DNA of 53,562 nucleotides, from contig VGXU01000011.1 of assembly GCA_016873215.1 (NCBI GenBank), forward strand, positions 1-53,562. Direction: 5' to 3'. Positions 3,814 to 50,101 of this stretch are shown one piece after another. How positions within the stretch are numbered: the stretch's first letter is position 1; every line of letters starts with the position of its first letter. The position numbers and the translations under genes are program-made. The notes under the pieces are model-generated. The model was not told where the DNA came from, searched no databases, and worked only from the letters and a program-made list of their open reading frames with translations. This DNA is from Planctomycetota bacterium (GTDB lineage: Bacteria; Planctomycetota; Phycisphaerae; Sedimentisphaerales; Anaerohalosphaeraceae).

Positions 3814-3908
3814 CTATGTGTCGCCCCTTCGGGGCTTTAGGGAAGAGAGTGAGAGAATCGGTTCCGGCGGTTCACACCGCCGGCTATTGTATATCGTCCC
3901 TTCGGGAC
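3814..3908 (+). repeat. REP-like palindromic repeats (one half copy, one full copy)
   Basis: The full copy has a palindrome with arms CCGGCGG/CCGCCGG (3864-3883), a 12-nt spacer CTATTGTATATC (3884-3895), and a second palindrome GTCCC-TTC-GGGAC (3896-3908). The half copy just upstream has the spacer-like CTATGTGTC followed by GCCCC-TTC-GGGGC (3823-3835) and CTTTAG. The arrangement is the same as in the array beside the transposase gene at 19309-19761, but with different stem sequences. Confidence 0.7.
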
Positions 3909-4222
3909 TCAGGAGAGGAATCCGCTCCCCGCCATCGCGAGGACAGGCTGCGCGGATGGAAATTTACCCGAACCGAGACGGTTTGGCTACGTTAACTAAC
4001 CCTACATCGGGCGGCTTGCGCCGCGGCGCTTCTATTTCGAGGCGGCAAGGGAAACCGCAAAATTGAGAACTGAGAAATGGAGAAGGGATTGACGATTGGG
4101 GGAATGGGGGTAATAATTGTCTTAATAGATGTAAAAAGTGGAATTGCCGCCGGGAATGGCCGATATTGTAAGAGACAAGAGTCAAGAGAACAGAGACAAG
4201 AGATAAGGGCTTCGGGACAAGA

Positions 4223-10063: not shown

Positions 10064-10183
10064 ATGCTTGAAGATGCACTGCTCATTTTGAGGTTCCGGT
10101 ACGGCAGCGCCGAAGCGCTTGGCCGGATTTATGAGAAGTACCGGCATTACCTGCTGATTTATTGGCTTGACGAGATGCACTAA
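10064..10183 (+). pseudogene. Fragment of an ECF-type RNA polymerase sigma factor
   Basis: A 39-codon frame starting at ATG 10064 encodes MLEDALLILRFRYGSAEALG followed by RIYEKYRHYLL. This is the usual opening of planctomycete ECF sigma factors, the first helix of region 2.1. The similarity stops about 30 residues in and the frame ends after LIYWLDEMH, so regions 2.2-2.4 and 4 are missing. Nothing like the rest is visible before the converging nfnB gene. It is therefore a truncated relic, not a functional factor. The remainder of the 9897-10193 gap is GC-rich with no other recognised feature. Assignment rests on memory of the family pattern. Confidence 0.5.
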
Positions 10184-10193
10184 GGGTTCGTTT

Positions 10194-11657
10194 CTATTTT
10201 GTTTTCAGATACTCATTGATTGCGGCGGCGGCGATGCGTCCCTGGCCCATCGCCAGAATGACGGTTGCAGCGCCAAGAACGATGTCCCCGCCGGCATAGA
10301 CGCCATCGAGGTTAGTTTTGCAATTGTCATCGACGACGATATTTCCCCACTTGTTAAATTGCAGATTCGGCGTGGTCTGCTGGATAAGCGGGTTTGAGCC
10401 GTTGCCGATGGCGACGATGACGGTATCGACATCGATTGTAAATTCGCTGCCGGGGATTTCGACGGGCCGGCGTCGGCCGGAGTCGTCGGGTTCGCCGAGT
10501 TGGTATCGCAGATTTTCGATACCGATGACACTGCCTTTGTCATCGCCGAGGATGCGTTTTGGATTTTGGAGGGTGCAGAAGATGACGCCTTCTTCTTTGG
10601 CGTGGTGGACTTCTTCGACACGTGCGGGCATTTCGACTTCGCTGCGGCGGTAGATGAGATAGACTTTTTCTGCGCCGAGGCGGACGGCCATACGCGCGGA
10701 GTCCATCGCGACGTTTCCGCCGCCGAGGACGGCGACTTTTTTGCTTACGGCGATGGGTGTGTCGGCGCCTTTGCCGAAGGCGTAGGCTTTCATCAGGTTT
10801 GCGCGGGTGAGATATTCGTTTGCGCTATAGACGCCGACGAGCTGTTCGCCGGGGATATTCATAAATTTGGGGAGTCCTGCGCCGACGCCGATATAGACGG
10901 CATCGAATTTGTCTTCCGTCATCAATTCATCAATGGTGCGGGTTCTGCCGACGATGAAGTTGCAGACGATATGGACGCCCATTTTTTCGAGGACGTCGAT
11001 TTCTTTCTGGACGATGGCCTTGGGCAGGCGGAATTCGGGGATACCGTAAATCATTACGCCGCCGGGCTTGTGGAAGGCTTCGAAGACGGTGACATCGTGT
11101 CCCGCACGGCGGGTGTCTGCGGCGGCGACGATACCGCCGGGGCCTGAGCCGATGACGGCGACCTTTTTGCCGGTGGCGGGGGCGACCGTGGGGATACCGC
11201 CGTTCTGGTCGAGGTCAGCGACGAAACGTTCGATTCTTCCGATGGAGACGCTCATCGCGACGTCTTTGTATTTTTTGCCTACGGTGCAGGTTTCCTGGCA
11301 CTGGACTTCCTGCGGGCAAACGCGTCCGCAGACGGCGGGCAGGAGGGAATTTTGTTTAATGATTGCCAAAGCTCTGGCGAAATCGCCGTCGGCGACGGCT
11401 CCGAGGAAATCACGAATTTGGATTCGCACGGGACAACCTTCGACGCAGGGAGCGTTGGCACACTGGAGGCAGCGAAGGGCTTCGAGTCGCGCCTGCGTTT
11501 CGGTATAACCCTGGGCGACTTCTTTAACGTTGCTCCGGCGGGCGTGTTCATCCTGCGAGGGCATGGCCTGCGGGGGGATCATATAACGGTCTTTGGCTTT
11601 TAATTCGCCTTTGGCTTTTTTCTCGAGCATTTCCTGTAATAATTTTTTGCAATCCAC
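10194..11657 (-). CDS. nfnB: NfnB-type NADPH:ferredoxin oxidoreductase large subunit (GltD-like)
   Basis: The 487-residue flavoprotein resembles the glutamate synthase small-subunit family. It has an N-terminal Cys-rich [4Fe-4S] domain (CLQCANAPCVEGCP near residue 63 and CGRVCPQEVQCQETC near residue 110), a first FAD dinucleotide-binding motif GSGPGGIVAAA (about 171) and a second NADPH-binding motif GGGNVAMDSARMA (about 313), ending with GVYAGGDIVLGAATV. Alone it could be a glutamate synthase subunit. Here it follows an NfnA-like gene with a 41-bp gap, the arrangement of NfnAB, which couples NADH and ferredoxin oxidation to NADP reduction by electron bifurcation. No large glutamate synthase subunit is nearby. 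The start is GTG with a weak ribosome site. A SudAB-type sulfide dehydrogenase is the main alternative. Confidence 0.82.
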   Translation of the reverse strand: MDCKKLLQEMLEKKAKGELKAKDRYMIPPQAMPSQDEHARRSNVKEVAQGYTETQARLEALRCLQCANAPCVEGCPVRIQIRDFLGAVADGDFARALAIIKQNSLLPAVCGRVCPQEVQCQETCTVGKKYKDVAMSVSIGRIERFVADLDQNGGIPTVAPATGKKVAVIGSGPGGIVAAADTRRAGHDVTVFEAFHKPGGVMIYGIPEFRLPKAIVQKEIDVLEKMGVHIVCNFIVGRTRTIDELMTEDKFDAVYIGVGAGLPKFMNIPGEQLVGVYSANEYLTRANLMKAYAFGKGADTPIAVSKKVAVLGGGNVAMDSARMAVRLGAEKVYLIYRRSEVEMPARVEEVHHAKEEGVIFCTLQNPKRILGDDKGSVIGIENLRYQLGEPDDSGRRRPVEIPGSEFTIDVDTVIVAIGNGSNPLIQQTTPNLQFNKWGNIVVDDNCKTNLDGVYAGGDIVLGAATVILAMGQGRIAAAAINEYLKTK

Positions 11658-11698
11658 AGTACGATTCCAATCGTCAATCGAAAATCATCAATCGTTAA

Positions 11699-17400: not shown

Positions 17401-19215
17401 ATGGACACGCGAATGATTGAATTATTGGCACCGGCAAGGGATGCGAAAACCGCGATAACGGCGATAGAATGCGGTGCGGACGCGGTGTATATCGGCGCGC
17501 CGCGGTTTGGTGCCCGGCAGGCGGCGGGCAGCAGCCTTGACGACATCCGCCGGGTGGTGGAATTTGCTCATCCGTATTATGTGAAGGTTTATGCGGCGCT
17601 GAATACACTGCTGTATGATGAAGAGCTGGCGGAGGCGGAGAAAATAATTCGCCAATTATACGACATCGGTGTTGACGGGGTGATAGTTCAGGATGCGGGC
17701 TTGCTGGATGCGGATTTGCCGGCGATATCGCTGATTGCCAGTACGCAGATGAATAATGATTCGACGGAGAAGGTGAAATTTCTGGAGGGGGTGGGGTTTT
17801 CGCGGGCAATTCTGGCGCGGGAATTGACGCTGTCGCAGATTCGGGAGATTCGGAAGCACACGTCGATTGAGCTGGAATGTTTTATCCACGGCGCGCTGTG
17901 CGTGGGAGCCAGCGGCCAATGTTATTTGAGTTATGCCATCGGTGGCCGCAGCGGCAATCGCGGGGTCTGCGCGCAGCCGTGCCGGAGGATATATACGCTG
18001 AAGGATAAATCCGGCGGTGTTGTTGTGAAGAATAGATACCTGTTGTCGCTGAAGGATTTGAATTTGTCGGGGTACCTGGAAGAGATGATTGACGCGGGCG
18101 TCTGCGCATTCAAGATTGAGGGGCGATTGAAGGATGCGTCTTACGTGGCCAATACGGTCGGATTCTATCGACAAAAATTGGATGCGATTCTGGCTAAAAA
18201 GGGATTGCGGAAAAGCTCGTCCGGCGGGGTGCGTCTGAATTTTACGCCGGATTTGGGTAAGACGTTTAATCGCGGCTATACGGATTATGGAATCGCCGCC
18301 AAATGCGAAAAGATGGGGGCAATGGATACACCCAAGTCCGTCGGTGAGTTTGCCGGCGTTGTGTCGCGCGTGGACAAGGGCGGTTTTGTTTTGGACGGCA
18401 AAGTAGAACTGCACAACGGCGACGGAATATGCTTTTTTGATACGCAAAATAACCTGGGCGGGACGGTGGTCAACGGCATTGAGGGACGTAAAATTAAGCC
18501 GCAGAAGATGGAGGATATCCGTGCGGGGATGAAAATCTATCGCAATTACGACCACGCGTTTAACAAGCTGCTGGAAAAAAATCCGGCACAGCGAAAAATT
18601 TTAATTTGGATGGTTCTGCGTGATACGAATGAAGGCGTTTCATTGACTGCCAAAGATGAAGACGGCAATGAGGCGATAGTGGACATTAAAATAGAGAAAA
18701 TACCGGCGCAAAAAAAAGACGCGGCGATGGAAACGATTCGGACGCAGTTGAAAAAATTAGGCGGTACGATTTTTGAGTGCGTTGAGGTGCGGGTCGAGAC
18801 GCCGGAGGTTTATTTTTTTGCGGTTTCGGCGATGAATGAATTGCGGCGGGCGGTGGTTGGAAAGCTGCTTGAGGCGCGTGAGCAAAACCGGCCGAGGAAA
18901 CGGGGCGGGGCGATACGCAATGCCGTGCCATATCCGGAAAAGCATCTGAGCTATCGGGGCAATGTGCTGAATACCAGGGCGCGGGCGTTTTATCTGCGGC
19001 ATGGCGTGGAGACGATAGACCCTGCGGCGGAGACGGGACTGGATTTGACGGGCGGGGTGGCGATGACGACGAAATATTGTCTGCGACGGGAGCTGGGATT
19101 GTGCGACGGCGCCGGACGCCAGTCGGAGGCGATGATTCTGGAGGATGAGGACGGCCAACAGTTTGAAGTAAAATTCCGCTGCGGTCCCTGCGGAATGGAA
19201 ATTGTTCCAAAGTGA
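17401..19215 (+). CDS. Peptidase family U32 protein with DUF3656 domain (RNA hydroxylase type)
   Basis: The family signature is clear at ECFIHGALCVGASGQCYLS (about residues 160-178), and the four-Cys cluster region continues into GNRGVCAQPCRR. The 604-residue length and the middle domain (DUF3656-like, about 300-500) place it with the RlhA/YdcP group rather than short TrhP-like members. In bacteria, U32 proteins are now known to act in hydroxylation of tRNA uridine (TrhP) or 23S rRNA cytidine (RlhA) rather than as proteases; the exact target is inferred. The open frame extends 29 codons further upstream, but ATG 17401 (MDTRMIELLAPARDAKTA) matches where family members begin; ATG 17413 is also possible. 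The gene stands alone, divergent from the LptC-like operon. Confidence 0.82.
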   Translation: MDTRMIELLAPARDAKTAITAIECGADAVYIGAPRFGARQAAGSSLDDIRRVVEFAHPYYVKVYAALNTLLYDEELAEAEKIIRQLYDIGVDGVIVQDAGLLDADLPAISLIASTQMNNDSTEKVKFLEGVGFSRAILARELTLSQIREIRKHTSIELECFIHGALCVGASGQCYLSYAIGGRSGNRGVCAQPCRRIYTLKDKSGGVVVKNRYLLSLKDLNLSGYLEEMIDAGVCAFKIEGRLKDASYVANTVGFYRQKLDAILAKKGLRKSSSGGVRLNFTPDLGKTFNRGYTDYGIAAKCEKMGAMDTPKSVGEFAGVVSRVDKGGFVLDGKVELHNGDGICFFDTQNNLGGTVVNGIEGRKIKPQKMEDIRAGMKIYRNYDHAFNKLLEKNPAQRKILIWMVLRDTNEGVSLTAKDEDGNEAIVDIKIEKIPAQKKDAAMETIRTQLKKLGGTIFECVEVRVETPEVYFFAVSAMNELRRAVVGKLLEAREQNRPRKRGGAIRNAVPYPEKHLSYRGNVLNTRARAFYLRHGVETIDPAAETGLDLTGGVAMTTKYCLRRELGLCDGAGRQSEAMILEDEDGQQFEVKFRCGPCGMEIVPK

Positions 19216-41763: not shown

Positions 41764-41912
41764 AAAAAAAGGTGAAAAACATCTGATTATTCGGCTAAAA
41801 TCGTGTAAATTTTCACAAAAAGGAATTCTGCAATAAACGATTTTGTCCATGCGTCTCAAACACGGGTCATTTCAAGCAACGCGTTGCGGATTAAATATTG
41901 AAAGGGATTTTT

Positions 41913-43127
41913 ATGTTCAGAAAAAGTATGAATTTTATGACAATTGCGGTACTGTTGCTGGCAGCCTGTGTCAGCGCCAAGGATGTCAAAAACATCGTGG
42001 TGATCGGATGGGATGGCTCTCAGAGGAATCATGTCAAGGAGATGATTGAGCGTAAGGAACTGCCAAATCTTATGGCGCTGAGCAAGGAAGGCAAAATGGT
42101 CGATATCGATGTCACCAGCGGCGCCACCGATACCAAGGCGGGATGGACGCAGATTCTGACCGGTTATCGCTGTGAAGTGACCGGTGTCTATAGCAACAGC
42201 AGGTATCAGCCCATTCCGGAAGGTTATTCGGTCTTTGAACGGCTGGAAAAACACTTCGGCCCGGACAAGATTGATACCGTTGCCATTATTGGCAAGAAAG
42301 GTCATGTCGATAATGATGGGCCGCAAAAAGTGCATTACGAAAAATGGCTGGCCAGAGAGAAAAAACAGGAAGCGATCAATAAAAAAGCAGCCGGACTTGG
42401 TAACATGCAGGGGGGTAAAATTATTGAAGAAAACGGCAAGAAGTTTGTCGAGACGCCCGGCAAACCCTGGTATCTCGCCAGTCAGCATATGGATTTGTTT
42501 GAAAACGGCCTGATAGAAAATGAGAAGGTCGGCACCCGGGCGATGGAAGAACTGGAAAAGCGAAAAGATCACCGGTTTTTCTTTTTTATTCACTTTGCCA
42601 ATCCAGACCATGATGGCCATAAATTTGGTGAGAACTCGCAGGAATATACCGATGCGCTAAAATCTGACGATGAATGGACGGGCAAGATTGTCGCCAAAAT
42701 CAAAGAATTAGGGCTGTATAAAGATACTCTGGTCTATATTGTTGTTGACCATGGTTTTAATGAAGGCGAAAAAGGACACAGCTATGCACCGTATGTGTTC
42801 ATGGCCACGAACGATTCGAGAGTTAACCGCGATGGCGACCGGATGGATATCGCCCCGACAATACTCAAGCGATTTGGCCTGGACTTGTCTAAGGTCGAAC
42901 CAAAGTTGGACGGTACGCCGTTAGATGAACCTGCCGAACGCAAGATTGCCCCGGCGGAAAATCCGAATCCAAATTCAAATAAGAATGCCGCAGGTCTGGG
43001 AAAGGCAACTGGTAAGAAGAAGTCTGGACAGACGACAGAAAAGAACGCGGCTGAGTCTAAAAAGAACGGCAGGAGGAAAAGCAGGGAAAAACAGCAGGAA
43101 GCTGCCGCTGCCAACACAGATGTATAA
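41913..43127 (+). CDS. Secreted phosphodiesterase/alkaline phosphatase superfamily protein with basic tail
   Basis: The start at 41913 (MFRKSMNFMTIAVLLLAACV) is preferred because AAAGGG lies before it. The 404-residue protein has a signal peptide, possibly lipobox-like LAAC. The core resembles type I phosphodiesterases/sulfatases: metal-binding VVIGWDGSQ, the nucleophile region SGATDTKAGWTQILTG (Thr), then FIHFANPDHDGH and YIVVDHGFNEG with the metal-binding Asp/His residues, and GHSYAP. The catalytic set looks complete, but substrate (phospho- or sulfo-ester) is unknown. After residue 330 a low-complexity Lys/Asn/Ala tail follows (GKATGKKKSGQT, NGRRKSREKQQEAA), absent from typical family members. 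Transcription ends at the terminator at 43145. Confidence 0.75.
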   Translation: MFRKSMNFMTIAVLLLAACVSAKDVKNIVVIGWDGSQRNHVKEMIERKELPNLMALSKEGKMVDIDVTSGATDTKAGWTQILTGYRCEVTGVYSNSRYQPIPEGYSVFERLEKHFGPDKIDTVAIIGKKGHVDNDGPQKVHYEKWLAREKKQEAINKKAAGLGNMQGGKIIEENGKKFVETPGKPWYLASQHMDLFENGLIENEKVGTRAMEELEKRKDHRFFFFIHFANPDHDGHKFGENSQEYTDALKSDDEWTGKIVAKIKELGLYKDTLVYIVVDHGFNEGEKGHSYAPYVFMATNDSRVNRDGDRMDIAPTILKRFGLDLSKVEPKLDGTPLDEPAERKIAPAENPNPNSNKNAAGLGKATGKKKSGQTTEKNAAESKKNGRRKSREKQQEAAAANTDV

Positions 43128-43249: not shown

Positions 43250-44752
43250 TTATTTGGACTCGGCAGGTGCCGGGGCAGCAATGAGCTTTGGCGGCAGGGT
43301 CACTTTTTCAATCTTAAAACATCCCAGTGTATTGACCAGCGAGAAGAAATCCGTGGGATTGCCGTCGCCGCGGGCCAGCGTAATATGGCCTGCGGAAAAG
43401 CCGTTCGGCGCCCGCGTCGGGTCGATTGGAAACCATTTTCCGTCCAGAAAAACCTCGGCCCACATGTGGGCGCCGAAGACATTTTTCTTTGTTCCTATCG
43501 CATCGGTATAGACTAATCCGCAGACGACTCGCGCGGGAATCCCGGCCGAGCGGCACATCGCCGCGGCCAGGATGGCGTGTTCCGTGCAGTCTCCCTGTCG
43601 TGTCTGGGCCACTTCCGCCGCCGAGGCATAGCCGACGGACATATCTTTTTTCGTGATGTAGCCTTTCACAAAACTTTCAATCTTCTGGGCCGCCTTGAGA
43701 ACATCATCCGTGCCGCTGACGGCGCGCTTTGCCAAATCCACGACTTTAGCGTCTTTGGTTTGGAGATATTCGGTTGCCTCAAGGGCTTTTATGACTTCTT
43801 TGTCTTTGCCTGCGTAGGGAAATTTCACCCTGCTGGGCGGCTGAATCGGACCCACGGTGACTTCGAACCGGCCCGGCGTGATTTCTTTTACCGCCTGCGT
43901 ATCGGTGTTGGGCAGCAGGAGAGGTTTGCTGGTTGTGGCCGTCAGTTCGTAAATAATCGGTCCGGCAAAGCTATCGCTGCCGATTGGAGTGGGGCTGGCC
44001 ACGCAGAGTTTGTCGAGGAAATCCACAATGTCGTCCTGGCTCAGGGCGAAATCTTTTTCGCAGGCGATCATTTCCAGATTCATTCCCATCATGGGAATAA
44101 TGCTTTTAAGAGCCATGAAATTTTCATCCACGTATTCGGTAAAAACAATAGCCTGCTGCCCGACCTGCATATTGATTTTGACTTCGCTGAGTTCCCGCAT
44201 TCTTCCGAGCAGATCGATACTGGTTTTTTTGCCCACTTCGACTTTTGCGGGCAAGGCCTGAGCCATGTCAGGCCTGAAGAGCAGGGCGTCGTAAAGTTGT
44301 CCCGGCTGCAGGCCTTTTTTGACCTGGAGCAGTCTCAATCCTTCCGCCATTAAGGCGCCGACGGGATACGCGATGGTGGACTCCGTCGATGTCGGGCCGT
44401 TTTGAAGAATCATTTTTATCTTGCCATTATTAACCGTCCCTTTGCGGGTTTGTTCCATACCGCTGATATTCTGAATGGTTTCAAAGGCAATGGGTTTTCC
44501 GGCGATACTTTCGATATTGACTTCCCGTCCGGTGTACCGAATGGCCGTTGGACCCCGGCCGATCAGCATATTCATATCGTTGGTGGTCGTCACCTGCGCC
44601 CCGTCAACTTTGCGGGCATGAATGGCGTAGCCGATTTTATGGCCGTCCAGGAGAATCGCCATATAATCCGTTTCCTCCGATGGCGCGGCGAATATAGTAC
44701 TGGTCAACAGAGATGAAAAAAGGATTGCTGAAACAAAGAAGTTCCTTTTCAT
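43250..44752 (-). CDS. Secreted transglutaminase-like protease-fold protein
   Basis: The 500-residue protein has a signal peptide (MKRNFFVSAILFSSLLTS) and a large N-terminal domain (about 30-330) without clear family. The C-terminal transglutaminase-like domain shows the catalytic triad: Cys in TRQGDCTEHAILAAAMCRSA (about residue 400), His in FGAHMWAEVFLDGKWF and Asp in PIDPTRAP. The family includes bacterial peptidases and peptide hydrolases. The start 44752 has AGGA upstream; the frame is open 11 codons further. It diverges from the caspase-like/murE region. In the probable ancestral arrangement this gene would have been next to murE, so a cell-wall-related role is conceivable but not shown. 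Confidence 0.82.
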   Translation of the reverse strand: MKRNFFVSAILFSSLLTSTIFAAPSEETDYMAILLDGHKIGYAIHARKVDGAQVTTTNDMNMLIGRGPTAIRYTGREVNIESIAGKPIAFETIQNISGMEQTRKGTVNNGKIKMILQNGPTSTESTIAYPVGALMAEGLRLLQVKKGLQPGQLYDALLFRPDMAQALPAKVEVGKKTSIDLLGRMRELSEVKINMQVGQQAIVFTEYVDENFMALKSIIPMMGMNLEMIACEKDFALSQDDIVDFLDKLCVASPTPIGSDSFAGPIIYELTATTSKPLLLPNTDTQAVKEITPGRFEVTVGPIQPPSRVKFPYAGKDKEVIKALEATEYLQTKDAKVVDLAKRAVSGTDDVLKAAQKIESFVKGYITKKDMSVGYASAAEVAQTRQGDCTEHAILAAAMCRSAGIPARVVCGLVYTDAIGTKKNVFGAHMWAEVFLDGKWFPIDPTRAPNGFSAGHITLARGDGNPTDFFSLVNTLGCFKIEKVTLPPKLIAAPAPAESK

Positions 44753-44904
44753 TGGACATCCTTTCCTGAATTTTTGTGGTTTCACGATTCAAAAAACCGA
44801 AAACAAGTCATATAATATAATTGCTTTTTGGGATAATGCCGTTTTCCGCCGGCACAAAGGAAGTATTGTACCGTTTTGTACCGGCCGGAGCAATAGAAAC
44901 CCGG

Positions 44905-45094
44905 CTTTTGCGGCAAAGACAGCAGCCATAGCCGGATTTTGTTGAAAAAATGGTGGTTTTGTCCGCCCGCGGCGGAGTTCATTTTTACGCGACAGGAATT
45001 TTTATGACGTTTACACAGCTTTTGGCTTTAGTAGGATCGCCGGCCGCCGATATCGGCGTCAGCGCCGATTCCCGCCAAATTCGCAGCGGCGATG
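44905..45094 (+). repeat. Upstream copy of the murE leader and first codons
   Basis: This 190-bp segment is repeated at 48551-48740, a constant offset of 3646 bp. From the ATG (45004 versus 48650) there are five mismatches in 91 bases, all of them A or T here and G or C in the murE copy. Upstream similarity runs to CTTTTGCGG with one diverged ten-base block. It includes the ribosome site CAGGAATTTTT. Confidence 0.93.
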
Positions 45095-46071
45095 AAGTTT
45101 CCGTGAAAGTTTATGCGGACTGCGGCAATCTGGTGTGGTCGCAGACCTATGACGGAAACGATATTGCGTATTCTATCCCTGCCGAGATTACCGGCCAGCA
45201 TGAGATTGATTATATTAATTTTGATAAAGACGATGGAACATCCATTACCAAATTTACATCTCAAACACTTCATCTTTCTAAAAGTGATCCTAATATTAAA
45301 GCTTTGATAATCCTTCCTGATACATTTTCGAGAATAGGAGATATTGTAACTGTATCAAAGGTTCAAACAGCTTTCAAGAACAGAGGTATTAAATATCAAA
45401 AGTTATCTTTGTGGTCAGCTACATTTGATAATATTGCATGGTTTGCTCAGAATAGAAATATCAAATATATTTACCTTAGTTCACATGGACATTATATCGC
45501 GGATGACAGCGGAACTTCGAGGACAACCGTAAAATTATGGGATGGATGGGCTGTTTCTGTCAAACAATCCGATTTCCCTCCGGGCCAGGCTCCTTCTTGG
45601 TGTGAAAGACTTTCCGGCGATTTGGAACTAACAGCAAAAAGTTTTGCCTCGATGGATTTTACATCTCTTGAATTTGCTTATTTTGACTGTTGCTACGGAG
45701 GAAGATTGAAGATAAGTTCTCATGGATATTTGATTATGGGTGGTTCGGGACAAATAGGTCTTCTTTTTGATGGGCCCCATTCCGACATGAGTATTGCTTT
45801 AGGCATGAATGATACCTCAAAGAGCCGTGTTTATCAGGGTTGGTATGATATGTCATCAATGACTTTTTGGTGGACAATCTGGTCAGCATCAGAATATCAA
45901 AAATGGACTCGGCTCGAATGGGAAAGATTAGGCGCAGGAGATAATTTGTATGATGCCTTAGATTATACAATTAACCATCAAACTGAATTTGACCCCAACA
46001 AAGCTCCGGTGAACAATTACCGACTGAAAGGACAAGGGTCTTTTACAGAGATAAAATTAAGATCAAATTGA
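45004..46071 (+). CDS. Chimeric protein: MurE N-terminus fused to a caspase-like domain
   Basis: The first 30 residues (MTFTQLLALVGSPAADIGVS and ADSRQIRSGD) copy MurE. From residue 31 (EVSVKVYADC) the sequence is unrelated: an Ig-like beta segment (about 31-85), then a caspase/metacaspase-like domain. Its catalytic pair would be His161 or His163 in YIYLSSHGHY and Cys229/230 in FAYFDCCYGG, recalling the SGHG and DCCHSG motifs of metacaspases. The remainder (to residue 355) is rich in aromatic residues. There is no signal peptide, although the domain's relatives in this phylum are often exported, so the fusion probably replaced the original N-terminus. Translation would use the murE ribosome site. 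AT-rich codon use beyond 45095 differs from murE. It may be a non-functional by-product or a new cytoplasmic protein. Overall 355 residues, stop TGA. Confidence 0.65.
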   Translation: MTFTQLLALVGSPAADIGVSADSRQIRSGDEVSVKVYADCGNLVWSQTYDGNDIAYSIPAEITGQHEIDYINFDKDDGTSITKFTSQTLHLSKSDPNIKALIILPDTFSRIGDIVTVSKVQTAFKNRGIKYQKLSLWSATFDNIAWFAQNRNIKYIYLSSHGHYIADDSGTSRTTVKLWDGWAVSVKQSDFPPGQAPSWCERLSGDLELTAKSFASMDFTSLEFAYFDCCYGGRLKISSHGYLIMGGSGQIGLLFDGPHSDMSIALGMNDTSKSRVYQGWYDMSSMTFWWTIWSASEYQKWTRLEWERLGAGDNLYDALDYTINHQTEFDPNKAPVNNYRLKGQGSFTEIKLRSN

Positions 46072-46091
46072 GGAGAGCAGAAAGGAATATT

Positions 46092-46550
46092 ATGCGTAAA
46101 AATATTTCACAATGGTTTTTCGGGTTGACCGCATTTTTAGCAATCTGTTTAATAGGTTTATGGTTATATCCGTCAGCCATTTATACAGACGTCTTTTACA
46201 AAATCTGCGGCTATACAATAACCAATGCTTTTATTCTTATCGCCAGCTACGTCTTATTACGGAAACTCAGGTTGCTTGCTTTGTGGAGATTTATAGTATA
46301 TCTTGTATCTATTGTGGCGGGAAATATTTGCATCGACTTCATTCTGCCTATGAGGCAACTTTGCCCTTCTCCTTTTATGGCGTCTAATTATTTTCTGTTT
46401 TTTGCTTTCGGTAATTTTGTACTCCTCGCTCTCTTTAATTTTATGCTCTCAAGGTTAATTTTTTTCATGAAGATCAGAGACGCTATTGTATTCGGTGTAA
46501 TTATAAGCTTAATCAACAATGTATTCTGCATGGGACCGTATTACAAATAA
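46092..46550 (+). CDS. Small integral membrane protein of unknown function
   Basis: The 152-residue protein (start ATG 46092 preceded by AAAGGA; a TTG start at 46068 overlapping the upstream stop is less likely) has four predicted hydrophobic helices: about residues 8-22, 38-57, 64-85 and 100-145 with polar breaks. It begins MRKNISQWFFGLTAFLA. No family is recognised. It lies 20 bases after the chimeric caspase-like gene and may be translationally linked. Codon and base composition are AT-rich like the rest of the island. It might be a membrane partner of the caspase-like protein; this rests on position only. Confidence 0.5.
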   Translation: MRKNISQWFFGLTAFLAICLIGLWLYPSAIYTDVFYKICGYTITNAFILIASYVLLRKLRLLALWRFIVYLVSIVAGNICIDFILPMRQLCPSPFMASNYFLFFAFGNFVLLALFNFMLSRLIFFMKIRDAIVFGVIISLINNVFCMGPYYK

Positions 46551-46608
46551 CTGATTAGAACAACCCAATCGCTCTGTCCGGCTGATTCAGAATCTGGCCA
46601 AATGAAAT

Positions 46609-46767
46609 GCCGGTTTTCACCGCAACGGGATTGTGGATGAGTGGGATTTGGAACTGATGAATCTTTGTATGGGCGCGGTCAGCGACCCCAACATTGTCCG
46701 GCTGGATATGGATTATGACGGCCGGGTTGATATGCCGGATTTCGGGCAAGCATTGGTGGAACCTTGA
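46609..46767 (+). pseudogene. Dockerin-like fragment
   Basis: Without a start codon, this frame reads HRNGIVDEWDLELMNLCMG and later LDMDYDGRVDMPDFGQAL before a TGA stop. The two Asp-rich loops spaced about 24 residues apart are the dockerin-like Ca-binding repeats found in secreted proteins elsewhere in this window. A TGA lies just upstream (46603), so this is a decayed end of a longer protein. Confidence 0.6.
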
Positions 46768-47299
46768 TGAAAAGAGTAGGGTATTTTCCTATTTCAATCT
46801 CCAGGAGCTGCTGCCTGATGACTGGGATCACAGGGGGTTTAGTTTATGGAGTATCGGAATGCATGATACAGTGAACAAATGGATTGTCTTTGTGGATTGC
46901 TGCAGATCAGCGGCGTTTGATACGTTCGATGTACAGCCGGATATGGCACGAACCTTTGGAATTTTTAACAGCGGCAATAACAATCAGATATATATAGGAT
47001 GGCATTACAAGATTACCACAACTCAGAGTGGACACAGAGAAATCTTTTCTCCCCGAAATTTTGAAAAATACAAAACGAAAATCGATCCCGGCATTATACG
47101 GTTCTGGGAAAAGATGGGGACAGGCAGTACGGTAGAGCAAGCGCTGGAAGCAACAACTCAAGCAAGTTATCTGGGCGAGGATACGCCTCTCACGCTGTGG
47201 GGTTCGAATACGAAAATGGATCTTGCCGTACCAAACAGTGATGATAGCATCCGTGTTTATGGCAATGGACTGACAAATAAATTAAGCAACAGCAATTAG
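46694..47299 (+). pseudogene. 5'-truncated second caspase-like sequence
   Basis: The open frame of 201 codons overlaps the dockerin fragment in another frame for its first 23 residues. From about residue 24 it resembles the C-terminal half of the caspase-like protein at 45004: KWIVFVDCCRSAAFD corresponds to SLEFAYFDCCYGG, IYIGWHYKI to VYQGWYDMS, and FWEKMGTGSTVEQALEAT to EWERLGAGDNLYDALDYT. The region with the catalytic His is missing, so it cannot be an active peptidase on its own. It follows a dockerin scrap and looks like the remains of a tandem duplicate. It could be expressed as a small protein, but there is no clear ribosome site before 46694. Confidence 0.55.
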
Positions 47300-47310
47300 C
47301 GAGGATTAAA

Positions 47311-48306
47311 ATGAAAAAGATGATTTTCTATGCGCTATTGGTTTTGATGACATTGGAGTGTTCATCCTGTCAGAAAAGACAGGAGAGAACTTCTTTGCCA
47401 GTTGAGGTTTGGGATGGTAAAAGTTTTTTACGAGAACGTGGGCTTCCTGTAAGTATTGTCTGGTTTAGAGGGCCGGGCGCAGAACTACCTCATAAGGGGT
47501 TTTGTCATGCAAAAGAGATTAAGGAAATTGTAGATCGGCTGCTGTGGCCTGAAATTCCAGGTTCACCGCCGGATATGTCCTTAGTGCCGGAAACTCGGAA
47601 TCTGTTGTGTTTATCTTTTTTTGAGGCAGGCCAATATTATGTTTCGCGTGTAGTGGTGGTTGATTTTGATATTGATAAAAATGGCGTTTTCCTCGGGCCT
47701 CGCGGCAAAAGCCCGGCGTTGGGCAAACTGTTGCAGGAAAAGGAGGAATCCGGCTTGAAAGGGTATTCTGTTTACGGCAGTCCTGACACTGAAGAAGAAA
47801 TGATCGACAGAAGTGAAACAATAAAACGTTACATGCAAGACCATCAAAAACGTTACGAGGAGGCCGTAGCACGCTACGAAATCCTCGGTGTTACGCATCC
47901 ATTTGAGCTTGTGGATATAACCATTGACGACCTTTTGAAAGACACCCCCAATAGCTTTGATGGCGTCCTCATTCGACGAAGCAACGACCCTGATCCGAAC
48001 CATGTGATGGCGATAGCCGGAGAACTTCGTAGTGCGCAACCCATTGTTGGCCACAAAATTAACGCCGATAAAATATTGGGGTATCCCTGGCCTATCCGTA
48101 TCTTTGAAGGATTCCAAAAGGCCGACCGAGTAAAGCTTCCCGCCATGGACAACTACCAGTACGAAGTAATCTTTCTAAATGGCAGTAATCGAAAAGGCTA
48201 CAGGATTAAAATGGCCGTCGATAAGAAGTATGTCTATGGCGCAGGCTATCGCTCCAAACAGCTTCGCAAAGACTTTGCGAAAAGGGGGTTATTTGAGACA
48301 AAATAA
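47311..48306 (+). CDS. Putative lipoprotein of unknown function
   Basis: The 331-residue protein begins MKKMIFYALLVLMTLECSSC, a signal peptide with Cys residues that could act as a lipoprotein attachment site though the lipobox is not canonical. The rest is mixed: a beta-rich region (about 30-130), a long charged helix (about 145-190, RYMQDHQKRYEEAVARYE) and a C-terminal beta region (about 230-331) with KADRVKLPAMDNYQYEVIFL. I do not recognise a family. GAGG stands before the ATG. It lies in the AT-rich island next to caspase-like remnants, 11 bases after their end, and may have been part of the same cargo. A terminator follows at 48442. Confidence 0.6.
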   Translation: MKKMIFYALLVLMTLECSSCQKRQERTSLPVEVWDGKSFLRERGLPVSIVWFRGPGAELPHKGFCHAKEIKEIVDRLLWPEIPGSPPDMSLVPETRNLLCLSFFEAGQYYVSRVVVVDFDIDKNGVFLGPRGKSPALGKLLQEKEESGLKGYSVYGSPDTEEEMIDRSETIKRYMQDHQKRYEEAVARYEILGVTHPFELVDITIDDLLKDTPNSFDGVLIRRSNDPDPNHVMAIAGELRSAQPIVGHKINADKILGYPWPIRIFEGFQKADRVKLPAMDNYQYEVIFLNGSNRKGYRIKMAVDKKYVYGAGYRSKQLRKDFAKRGLFETK

Positions 48307-48361
48307 GAGAGATTTACGATGCTATTTTCCGATAGGCGTCCAGGGGAGCTTCGGGATACCG

Positions 48362-48415
48362 TCCAGCCCGGCGGATTTTAATCAGGACGGGATTGTGGAT
48401 ACGCAAAAAATAGAT
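48362..48415 (+). pseudogene. Dockerin-like scrap before murE
   Basis: The short frame reads SSPADFNQDGIVDTQKID, the first Ca-binding loop of a dockerin-like repeat. The second loop is missing. It is a third trace of such repeats in the island and supports its origin from secreted-protein genes. Confidence 0.5.
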
Positions 48416-48441
48416 AATCATTCTCTGGCATATAAAATTTC

Positions 48442-48474
48442 AAAGCAGGGGACTGAAACGCTCCTGCTTTTTTT
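48442..48474 (+). terminator. Rho-independent terminator
   Basis: AAAGCAGG ... CCTGCTTT with a 13-nt loop and a T-run follows the lipoprotein gene and precedes the murE leader. Confidence 0.85.
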
Positions 48475-48550
48475 ATCGCGTTCACGAAAAGCAGGGCTTG
48501 TAATGTCGTGTAATTTTGATTAAATAGAGTTTAAATACAATTGTCATAAT

Positions 48551-48740
48551 CTTTTGCGGGAAAGACGGGATGCGTGGCCGAATTTTGCTGAAAAAAAGGC
48601 GGTTTTGTTCGCCCGCGGCGGAGTTCATTTTTACGCGACAGGAATTTTTATGACGTTTACACAGCTTTTGGCTTTAGTGGGATCGCCGGCCGCCGACATC
48701 GGCGTCAGCGCCGACTCCCGCCGGATTCGCAGCGGCGATG
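48551..48740 (+). repeat. Downstream copy of the murE leader (the functional one)
   Basis: The partner of 44905-45094. It contains the ribosome site and first 30 codons of intact murE. Similarity ends within codon 31 (GATG versus GTGTTTGTC). Confidence 0.93.
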
Positions 48741-50101
48741 TGTTTGTCGCCGTACCCGGCGTGCACGCCGACGGGCACAATTTTATCCCGCAAGCGGTCA
48801 AAAACGGCGCTGCATACATCGTGTGCCAAAAACCCGTCGATTGCCGTCCGGCCCAGATGGTTCTGGCCAACCGCTGCGCATACGCTCTTGGCCTGCTGGC
48901 ACAGGCGGCCCAGGGAAATCCCAGTTCCCAGCTTACCAATCTCGCCGTCACCGGCACAAACGGCAAAACCACCGTCAGCTACCTGACCCGCTCGGTCATT
49001 GAAACCGCCGGCCTTGAGGCCGGATTGGTCGGCACAATCATTCTTTCGGCCGGCAGGGCCGTTCAGGAAGCCGCGATGACGACGCCGGATGCCGTGACGA
49101 TTGCCAAAGCGGCCCGGCAAATGGTCGAAGACGGCGCGAAATATATGGTTATCGAGGCCAGCTCCCACGCCCTCGACCAGGACCGCCTGGCCGGGATTTC
49201 CTTTACCGCCGCGGCGTTCACCAATCTGACCGGCGACCATCTGGATTACCATAAAACGATGGAAGACTATCTTGCGGCCAAGACGAAACTGTTTCTGGAT
49301 TTGCCGCCGCACGCCATTGCCATTTTGAACGCCCAGTCGGAAGCGTCTGAAAAAATCGCCGAAAAATGCCGGGTTCGTATCCTTCGCTATGCCATTGACG
49401 AACCGACCGACATCACTGCTCACGTCCAGTCGATGAATGCCGCCGGAAGTGTATTCTCGATTGAATTTAACAATTATATGGAAAAAGTCCGCACGCCGCT
49501 TCCGGGAATGCATAATATCAGCAATCATCTGGCTGCGGCGGGTCTTTGCTTAGCGGCGGGGTTTGATTTGGGAATGGTTGCTAAGGGGCTGTCGGCGCTG
49601 AAAACCGTCCCCGGCCGGCTGGAACCGGTAATTTGCCCGGCCGGGCAAAAGGCCGGCATCGGCGTTTTTGTCGATTACGCCCACACTGACGACGCAATGC
49701 TTAATGTCCTCAATACGCTTAAACCGTTGTGCAAAGGCAAGTTGATTACGGTTTTCGGCTGCGGCGGCGACCGCGACAAGACCAAACGCCCCCGCATGGC
49801 CGCTGTGGCCGAGCGGCTCAGCGATTCGGTCATCGTCACCAGCGACAATCCGCGAACCGAAGACCCGCAGCAAATCATTGCCGACATTCTGGCTGGATTT
49901 TCCGATTTGGCGCGCCGGCAAAAAATTCGTATCGAAGTGGACCGAAAAAAGGCGATTGGACTTGCAATTTCCACCGCAAAAAGAGATGATATTATACTGA
50001 TTGCCGGAAAGGGACATGAGACGTACCAGATTATCGGGACGACCAAGACCCATTTCAGCGATCAGGAAGTCGCCCGCGAAATGATGGAAGCGATTTTGTA
50101 A
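48650..50101 (+). CDS. murE: UDP-N-acetylmuramoyl-tripeptide synthetase MurE
   Basis: MurE adds the third residue of the peptidoglycan stem peptide. The 483-residue protein shows the N-terminal UDP-binding region (SADSRRIRSGDVFVAVPG), the ATP-binding TGTNGKTT (about residue 103), EASSHALDQ, and the specificity motif DNPR (in SDNPRTEDPQ, about residue 400), which marks meso-diaminopimelate as substrate. The start at ATG 48650 has AGGA upstream; the frame is open 32 codons further into the duplicated leader. It is the first gene of the run murE-murF-mraY, with a 94-bp gap to murF. An extra copy of its 5' end lies 3646 bp upstream. Confidence 0.96.
   Translation: MTFTQLLALVGSPAADIGVSADSRRIRSGDVFVAVPGVHADGHNFIPQAVKNGAAYIVCQKPVDCRPAQMVLANRCAYALGLLAQAAQGNPSSQLTNLAVTGTNGKTTVSYLTRSVIETAGLEAGLVGTIILSAGRAVQEAAMTTPDAVTIAKAARQMVEDGAKYMVIEASSHALDQDRLAGISFTAAAFTNLTGDHLDYHKTMEDYLAAKTKLFLDLPPHAIAILNAQSEASEKIAEKCRVRILRYAIDEPTDITAHVQSMNAAGSVFSIEFNNYMEKVRTPLPGMHNISNHLAAAGLCLAAGFDLGMVAKGLSALKTVPGRLEPVICPAGQKAGIGVFVDYAHTDDAMLNVLNTLKPLCKGKLITVFGCGGDRDKTKRPRMAAVAERLSDSVIVTSDNPRTEDPQQIIADILAGFSDLARRQKIRIEVDRKKAIGLAISTAKRDDIILIAGKGHETYQIIGTTKTHFSDQEVAREMMEAIL

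Follow-up and report, generated by a model that had tools for sequence, protein, structure and literature searches.

Our analysis showed that the 3.6-kb island lying between the transglutaminase-like gene and the working copy of murE in this planctomycete is an insertion, and that it consists of two C-terminal cassettes which belong to a family of secreted beta-helix/dockerin proteins and have been displaced, away from any gene for the constant head of such proteins. The insertion is best read as a homology-driven event of the single-crossover type, with the sparing of murE as a by-product. Our preferred reading, to which we give a probability of about 0.62, is that polymorphic tip and partner cassettes were displaced on a fragment that became circular and entered at the murE 5' end by a single RecA-type crossover. 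Positions refer to the window, the whole 53,562-nucleotide stretch of DNA that was analysed, in which the junction is built as follows.

43250-44785, minus strand: transglutaminase-like gene, left neighbour of murE and divergent from it (Pfam Transglut_core, 3.4e-24), with synteny kept in 8 relatives.
44788-44816, plus strand: promoter-like site (TTCAAA-17-TATAAT, a 10/12 match from a consensus scan), candidate original murE promoter.
44905-45094, plus strand: repeat copy 1, with the murE leader, ribosome site and first 30 codons, attached to the host upstream region.
48551-48740, plus strand: repeat copy 2, which covers the corresponding leader, ribosome site and 30 codons at the start of the working gene.
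48650-50101, plus strand: complete murE, 483 aa (Pfam Mur_ligase_M, 4.3e-51; Mur_ligase_C, 3.9e-30).

In eight relatives from the same genus, family and order, the distance from the murE start to the nearest transglutaminase match is 169-758 bp, compared to about 3.86 kb to the working murE here (218 bp to the ATG of copy 1), and the empty site is therefore the ancestral state. The original prediction had proposed this comparison, and the eight empty sites mean that the arrangement is not one that relatives all carry. Its description of the island as AT-rich agrees with a GC content of 41.9% between flanks of 52.4% and 55.2%, and the island is also, as described, unrelated to the dcw genes.

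The two direct repeats were correctly located and described from the start: they lie at an offset of 3646 bp, align without gaps, and each comprises the 99 bp that precede the ATG, the first 30 codons of murE and one further base. They match at 173 of 190 positions (91.05%) with a BLAST E value of 1e-73 within the locus, so that the resemblance is not due to chance, and the 17 mismatches mean that the copies are not identical. These mismatches are unevenly spread: 12 fall within the first 59 bases and 5 within the last 62, and the 69 bases between have none. A run of this length free of mismatches (44964-45032, equal to 48610-48678) would have a probability of about 0.007 if the 17 were placed at random. 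Copy 2 reads on into a full-length murE with its Mur ligase domains, and murE thus stays whole, as had been claimed. Among named genomes, the closest murE sequences come from Phycisphaerae and other planctomycete MAGs, the best, at 55%, from a planctomycete MAG. The leader does not behave as a genus-wide repeat, since the leaders of genus mates do not align with it.

The content of the island becomes clear by comparison with a second locus of the same family, found by DNA search on contig C29 of the same genome.

45004-46071, plus strand: fusion ORF, with murE codons 1-30 in frame with a type-A tip and no signal peptide.
45088-45094, plus strand: GGCGATG at the left, illegitimate joint, candidate micro-homology.
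46092-46550, plus strand: membrane protein of 152 aa with about 5 hydrophobic helices, the type-A partner.
46606-46749, plus strand: dockerin-like remnant of the constant region, start of cassette B.
46743-47299, plus strand: C-terminal half of a type-B tip, broken (81% aa identity to the C29 member, with which it was also aligned at the DNA level).
47311-48306, plus strand: lipoprotein-like type-B partner, 331 aa, intact (59% to its C29 paralogue; homologues after type-B tips in G045 and G043).
48305-48412, plus strand: another remnant of the dockerin region, following the partner gene; C29 has one in the same place (18475-18556).
48444-48475, plus strand: intrinsic terminator ending the array, a stem followed by T7 (fold -14.5 kcal/mol, z -3.66), with a counterpart at the end of the C29 array.

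The left part of the island (45095-46550) is a type-A tip that takes over at murE codon 30, followed by the membrane protein, whose homologues lie directly 3' of type-A tips in G030, G042 and G045. The tip part of the fusion ORF, open over 324 codons, contains the end of an Ig-like segment and a caspase-like domain in which the His and Cys motifs are retained, and by its sequence the fused ORF can be read from the murE start. The right part (46606-48476) follows the order of the C29 locus, i.e. dockerin remnant, half tip, lipoprotein gene, dockerin remnant and terminator. On C29, the family member is an intact 1119-aa ORF with a hydrophobic N-terminus and a dockerin match (E 2e-4); behind it lie a lipoprotein-like gene (325 aa), a second copy of about 80 bp of the dockerin region, a terminator and queC. 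Relative to this member, the type-B tip of the island has suffered an internal deletion of about 1.15 kb and is out of frame with its dockerin remnant. The two lipoprotein paralogues differ mostly by synonymous changes (w 0.15, a rough figure given the high dS), and an open lipoprotein gene beside a broken type-B tip is what one would see if partner genes persisted after the loss of their tips.

Of 161 genomes of the order, 27 have type-A tips, which usually form the end of proteins of about 1000 aa; one of these proteins has a Pfam beta-helix match. Intact members of the family are predicted secreted proteins that combine a beta-helix with dockerin-like repeats and an Ig-like segment and end in a His/Cys domain. 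Their layout is that of a constant head with variable tips, each tip having a specific partner gene behind it that encodes a membrane protein, a lipoprotein or, in one case, a serpin. Strong matches to the membrane partner occur in four genomes only, each time (4/4) directly behind a type-A tip or its remnant, while the lipoprotein partner follows type-B tips on C29, in G045 and G043 and in the murE island. Tip exchange is visible between G018 and G043, two genomes of the same genus that share chromosomal flanks and head at about 89-93% DNA identity. The head of the G018 main gene is 89% identical to the head on G043 contig C10 and the attached tips differ; the tip fused to the G018 head exists on G043 contig C9 as a separate cassette with its partner (93% over 3.3 kb). 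Head fragments between cassettes within G043 are 95-100% identical. In G083, a head gene is accompanied by two orphan cassettes, each beginning in the dockerin region and each with its own partner behind, and the array in G030 consists of a head gene and, behind it, two partners, the first of them the membrane partner, separated by a small lipoprotein and a truncated tip. Orphan cassettes accompanied by head fragments were seen at G083:C57, G018:C7, G043:C9/C21, G030:C40, C29 and the murE island. These comparisons demonstrate cassette arrays and tip exchange in relatives and establish the identity of the cassettes of the island; it is on the basis of these arrays and of the head and tip layout that we assign the murE island to two displaced cassettes.

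Two further observations were made on these arrays. In the comparison of G043 (C9, C10 and C21) with G018 (C7), contigs of G043 end exactly inside the near-identical head fragments, and many planctomycete genome assemblies are therefore likely to represent such arrays incompletely. A recurrent partner family of about 500 aa, with the motif VDYVAEYN and one N-terminal hydrophobic segment, lies behind different tips in several families (L260, reverse complement of 10122-11672; partner C of L193, G018:C7; L263; L264); its G083 member has no Pfam match and its G018 member a sub-threshold match to T2SSG (0.0078).

The tip is probably a caspase-like peptidase of clan CD. The Cys is invariant in 11 tips of four types, in a DCC or DxC context, and most have an HG motif, the motif His being replaced by D in the type-B tips of C29 and G043. 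A comparison of the tip profile with Peptidase_C14 relatives from the same order gave a weak match that aligned both the His and the Cys motifs (E 3.5e-4, hhalign probability 37%), compared to an E value of 0.41 for a murE control, and it is this comparison that makes the assignment probable. The tip family has no significant match among Pfam, NCBIfam and PADLOC models, the same collections yielded nothing informative for the fused protein and the partners, and a profile search of the PDB with the tip gave chance-level matches, none of them significant. An AlphaFold (AF2) model of the tip alone, computed without an alignment, was unusable (pLDDT 36). The partners, being membrane proteins, lipoproteins and a serpin, fit a role as putative envelope inhibitors or immunity proteins, which is probably what they are, and a toxin/immunity function of tips and partners is putative. 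The serpin gene (E 4e-121) is found in G157, where it starts 13 bp after a type-A-like tip gene; it encodes a secreted protein (L261, G157:C87, 9617-10837) that is a possible inhibitor partner of the tip. Secretion of the heads is suggested by the hydrophobic N-terminal segment of the C29 member; no delivery system was identified.

This organisation resembles the Rhs, CDI and T6SS polymorphic toxin loci (PMC3482391, PMC3150448, PMC5361080) in its constant head with an exchangeable tip and its own partner, in the displaced tips and partners downstream, in the head fragments between cassettes and in tip exchange between close species. It differs in that the heads here are beta-helix/dockerin secreted proteins of Phycisphaerae, in that the tips compared, of putative toxicity, all look like variants of one His/Cys domain rather than many unrelated toxins, and in that the cassettes at murE lie away from any head gene. 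The closest parallel for the tip itself is with the Tox-Caspase tips (PMC3482391), which likewise place a C-terminal caspase-like domain with His and Cys motifs on a secreted protein with a partner behind, although the tip family described here, of putative peptidase function, has no significant match to the Pfam caspase-like families.

How the cassettes came to murE is suggested by the two joints. The left joint, from murE codon 30 to the tip, is illegitimate, and the right side, in the murE leader, is homologous. As expected of a single-crossover insertion, the insert is flanked by a direct repeat with an identical tract at its centre, and a 69-bp tract without mismatches, bordered on both sides by diverged sequence, is consistent with recombination between the copy of the host and that of a donor. 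We propose that the end of an array (cassette A with its tip and membrane partner, cassette B with its half tip and lipoprotein partner, and the terminator) came to lie beside a murE leader, and that a donor fragment running from the type-A tip through the array end to the murE leader and 30 codons would have been end-joined into a circle, perhaps via GGCGATG. A single RecA-type crossover, most likely located in the 69-bp tract, may then have taken the circle into the chromosome and would leave the murE 5' end on both sides of the island. A precedent exists in E. coli: when incoming DNA was homologous at one end, most insertions had arisen from a circularised form through a single crossover and bore duplications of 109-950 bp (PMC3240628). 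The island shares with such homology-facilitated illegitimate recombination a direct duplication flanking the insert and the combination of one homologous and one illegitimate joint; it differs in that those insertions were made by laboratory transfer, whereas here no donor was found and the flanking copies are 9% diverged. Our search for a donor with the array directly upstream of murE returned none. Near the place that corresponds to the left joint, homologues carry GATG or GGTGATG, in a comparison that lacks the parental type-A tip gene; no uninterrupted type-A parent gene was found, and the circle and the GGCGATG micro-homology therefore stay candidates.

The insertion has consequences for murE transcription. 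The promoter-like site lies outside the repeat, so that copy 2 is without it, and the terminator sits 75 bp before copy 2. With this site left at copy 1 and a terminator in front of copy 2, transcription of the working murE would depend on read-through or on a promoter within the interval from about 48476 to 48650.

The same final anatomy could be produced by an intragenomic template switch, in which a replication fork broken in murE would have found micro-homology to an array, copied about 3.45 kb and returned to the leader 190 bp upstream. This would need no foreign recombinase, and a homologous array end is present in the same genome, on C29. The two murE copies would have been identical at birth and have drifted since, whereas they now differ by 9%, with the differences concentrated towards either end of the repeat, and none of the three larger cassette ORFs has been interrupted; at 4.5-9% neutral drift, the 978-bp tip frame stays free of stops in 11-1% of simulations, and drift alone thus explains the mismatches less well. 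The island is moreover about 80% identical to C29 or less, which argues against a recent copy from there. We therefore consider a template switch unlikely, though worth keeping in mind.

Bolder is the proposal that the Phycisphaerae possess an undescribed secreted peptidase/inhibitor system whose tip cassettes can leave their home locus and take the murE 5' end in place of a head, so that a fusion is expressed, with murE and its regenerated start as the displaced "tip"; we regard this as doubtful.

An assembly artefact is improbable. It would have joined sequences at the 69-bp tract, the truth being an uninterrupted murE plus a 3646-bp circle, or an array placed elsewhere. The contig comes from a draft of 123 contigs, and an exact tract of 69 bp exceeds the common k-mer of 55; an Illumina assembly could in principle mis-resolve it. 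The joints at 45094 (murE to tip) and 48550 (array to leader) are, on the other hand, unique sequence that no repeat would create, and the duplication itself must consequently exist somewhere; a 3.6-kb circle lacking replication genes is also unlikely to persist.

Just as improbable is that selection has favoured the murE-tip fusion as a new gene, whose product would be a cytoplasmic peptidase made under murE signals and would pair with the membrane partner. The two parts are joined in frame, with an open tip and both motifs retained, but a frame is kept by chance one time in three, the Ig-like segment is truncated, there is no signal peptide, and no close relative is available in which selection could be tested.

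The original prediction likened the island to elements that regenerate the 5' end of their target gene. SXT/R391 in prfC is an integrative element of this sort, inserted in the 5' end of a gene that is kept whole by a duplicated 5' end. The preservation of murE is alike; the differences are that the island has no integrase or element genes and that its repeat is long and diverged rather than a short core. A true integrative element, its recombinase lost or acting in trans and the murE 5' end serving as a regenerated attachment site, would account for the direct repeats and for a murE that is whole with or without the island, but is very improbable in view of the lack of a recombinase (every island ORF is accounted for), of a short conserved att-like core and of terminal inverted repeats, of a content that is chromosomal cassette debris with a C29 paralogue, of a murE search of 40 other genomes, of the kind that the original prediction had suggested, that found no similar duplication or second murE 5' end, and of a tip without match in phage, plasmid or viral collections, on which ground a phage, plasmid or viral origin of the island was also rejected. 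The island contains no integrase, as had been noted and as the ORF and Pfam check confirmed, and no tRNA or Rfam RNA. What stands of the excision envisaged earlier is that the repeats could in principle recombine with each other, with the loss of 3646 bp and with murE left whole. Since the island is made of displaced cassettes from a chromosomal family with another copy on C29, the regeneration of murE is best read as a by-product.

Elsewhere in the window, an Acido-Lenti-1 RNA (Rfam RF01687) lies at 3864-3909 on the plus strand (56.9 bits, above the gathering score), and a gene resembling those of type I phosphodiesterases/sulfatases lies at 41898-43127 on the plus strand. Its product has a signal-like N-terminus and ends in a basic tail of low complexity, and the GC content of the gene, about 45-49%, is below that of its neighbours.

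What happened at murE is best read as a side effect of recombination processes that are already known, and the family that it revealed is a variant of the polymorphic-toxin type of organisation, of putative function. Orphan cassettes of tip and partner can land at an essential gene and leave it intact, apparently with no recombinase involved. A beta-helix/dockerin family with variable His/Cys tips and envelope partners is described in none of the libraries that we searched. If the partners are inhibitors, the family would represent a protease-based system of competition or self-recognition in planctomycetes.
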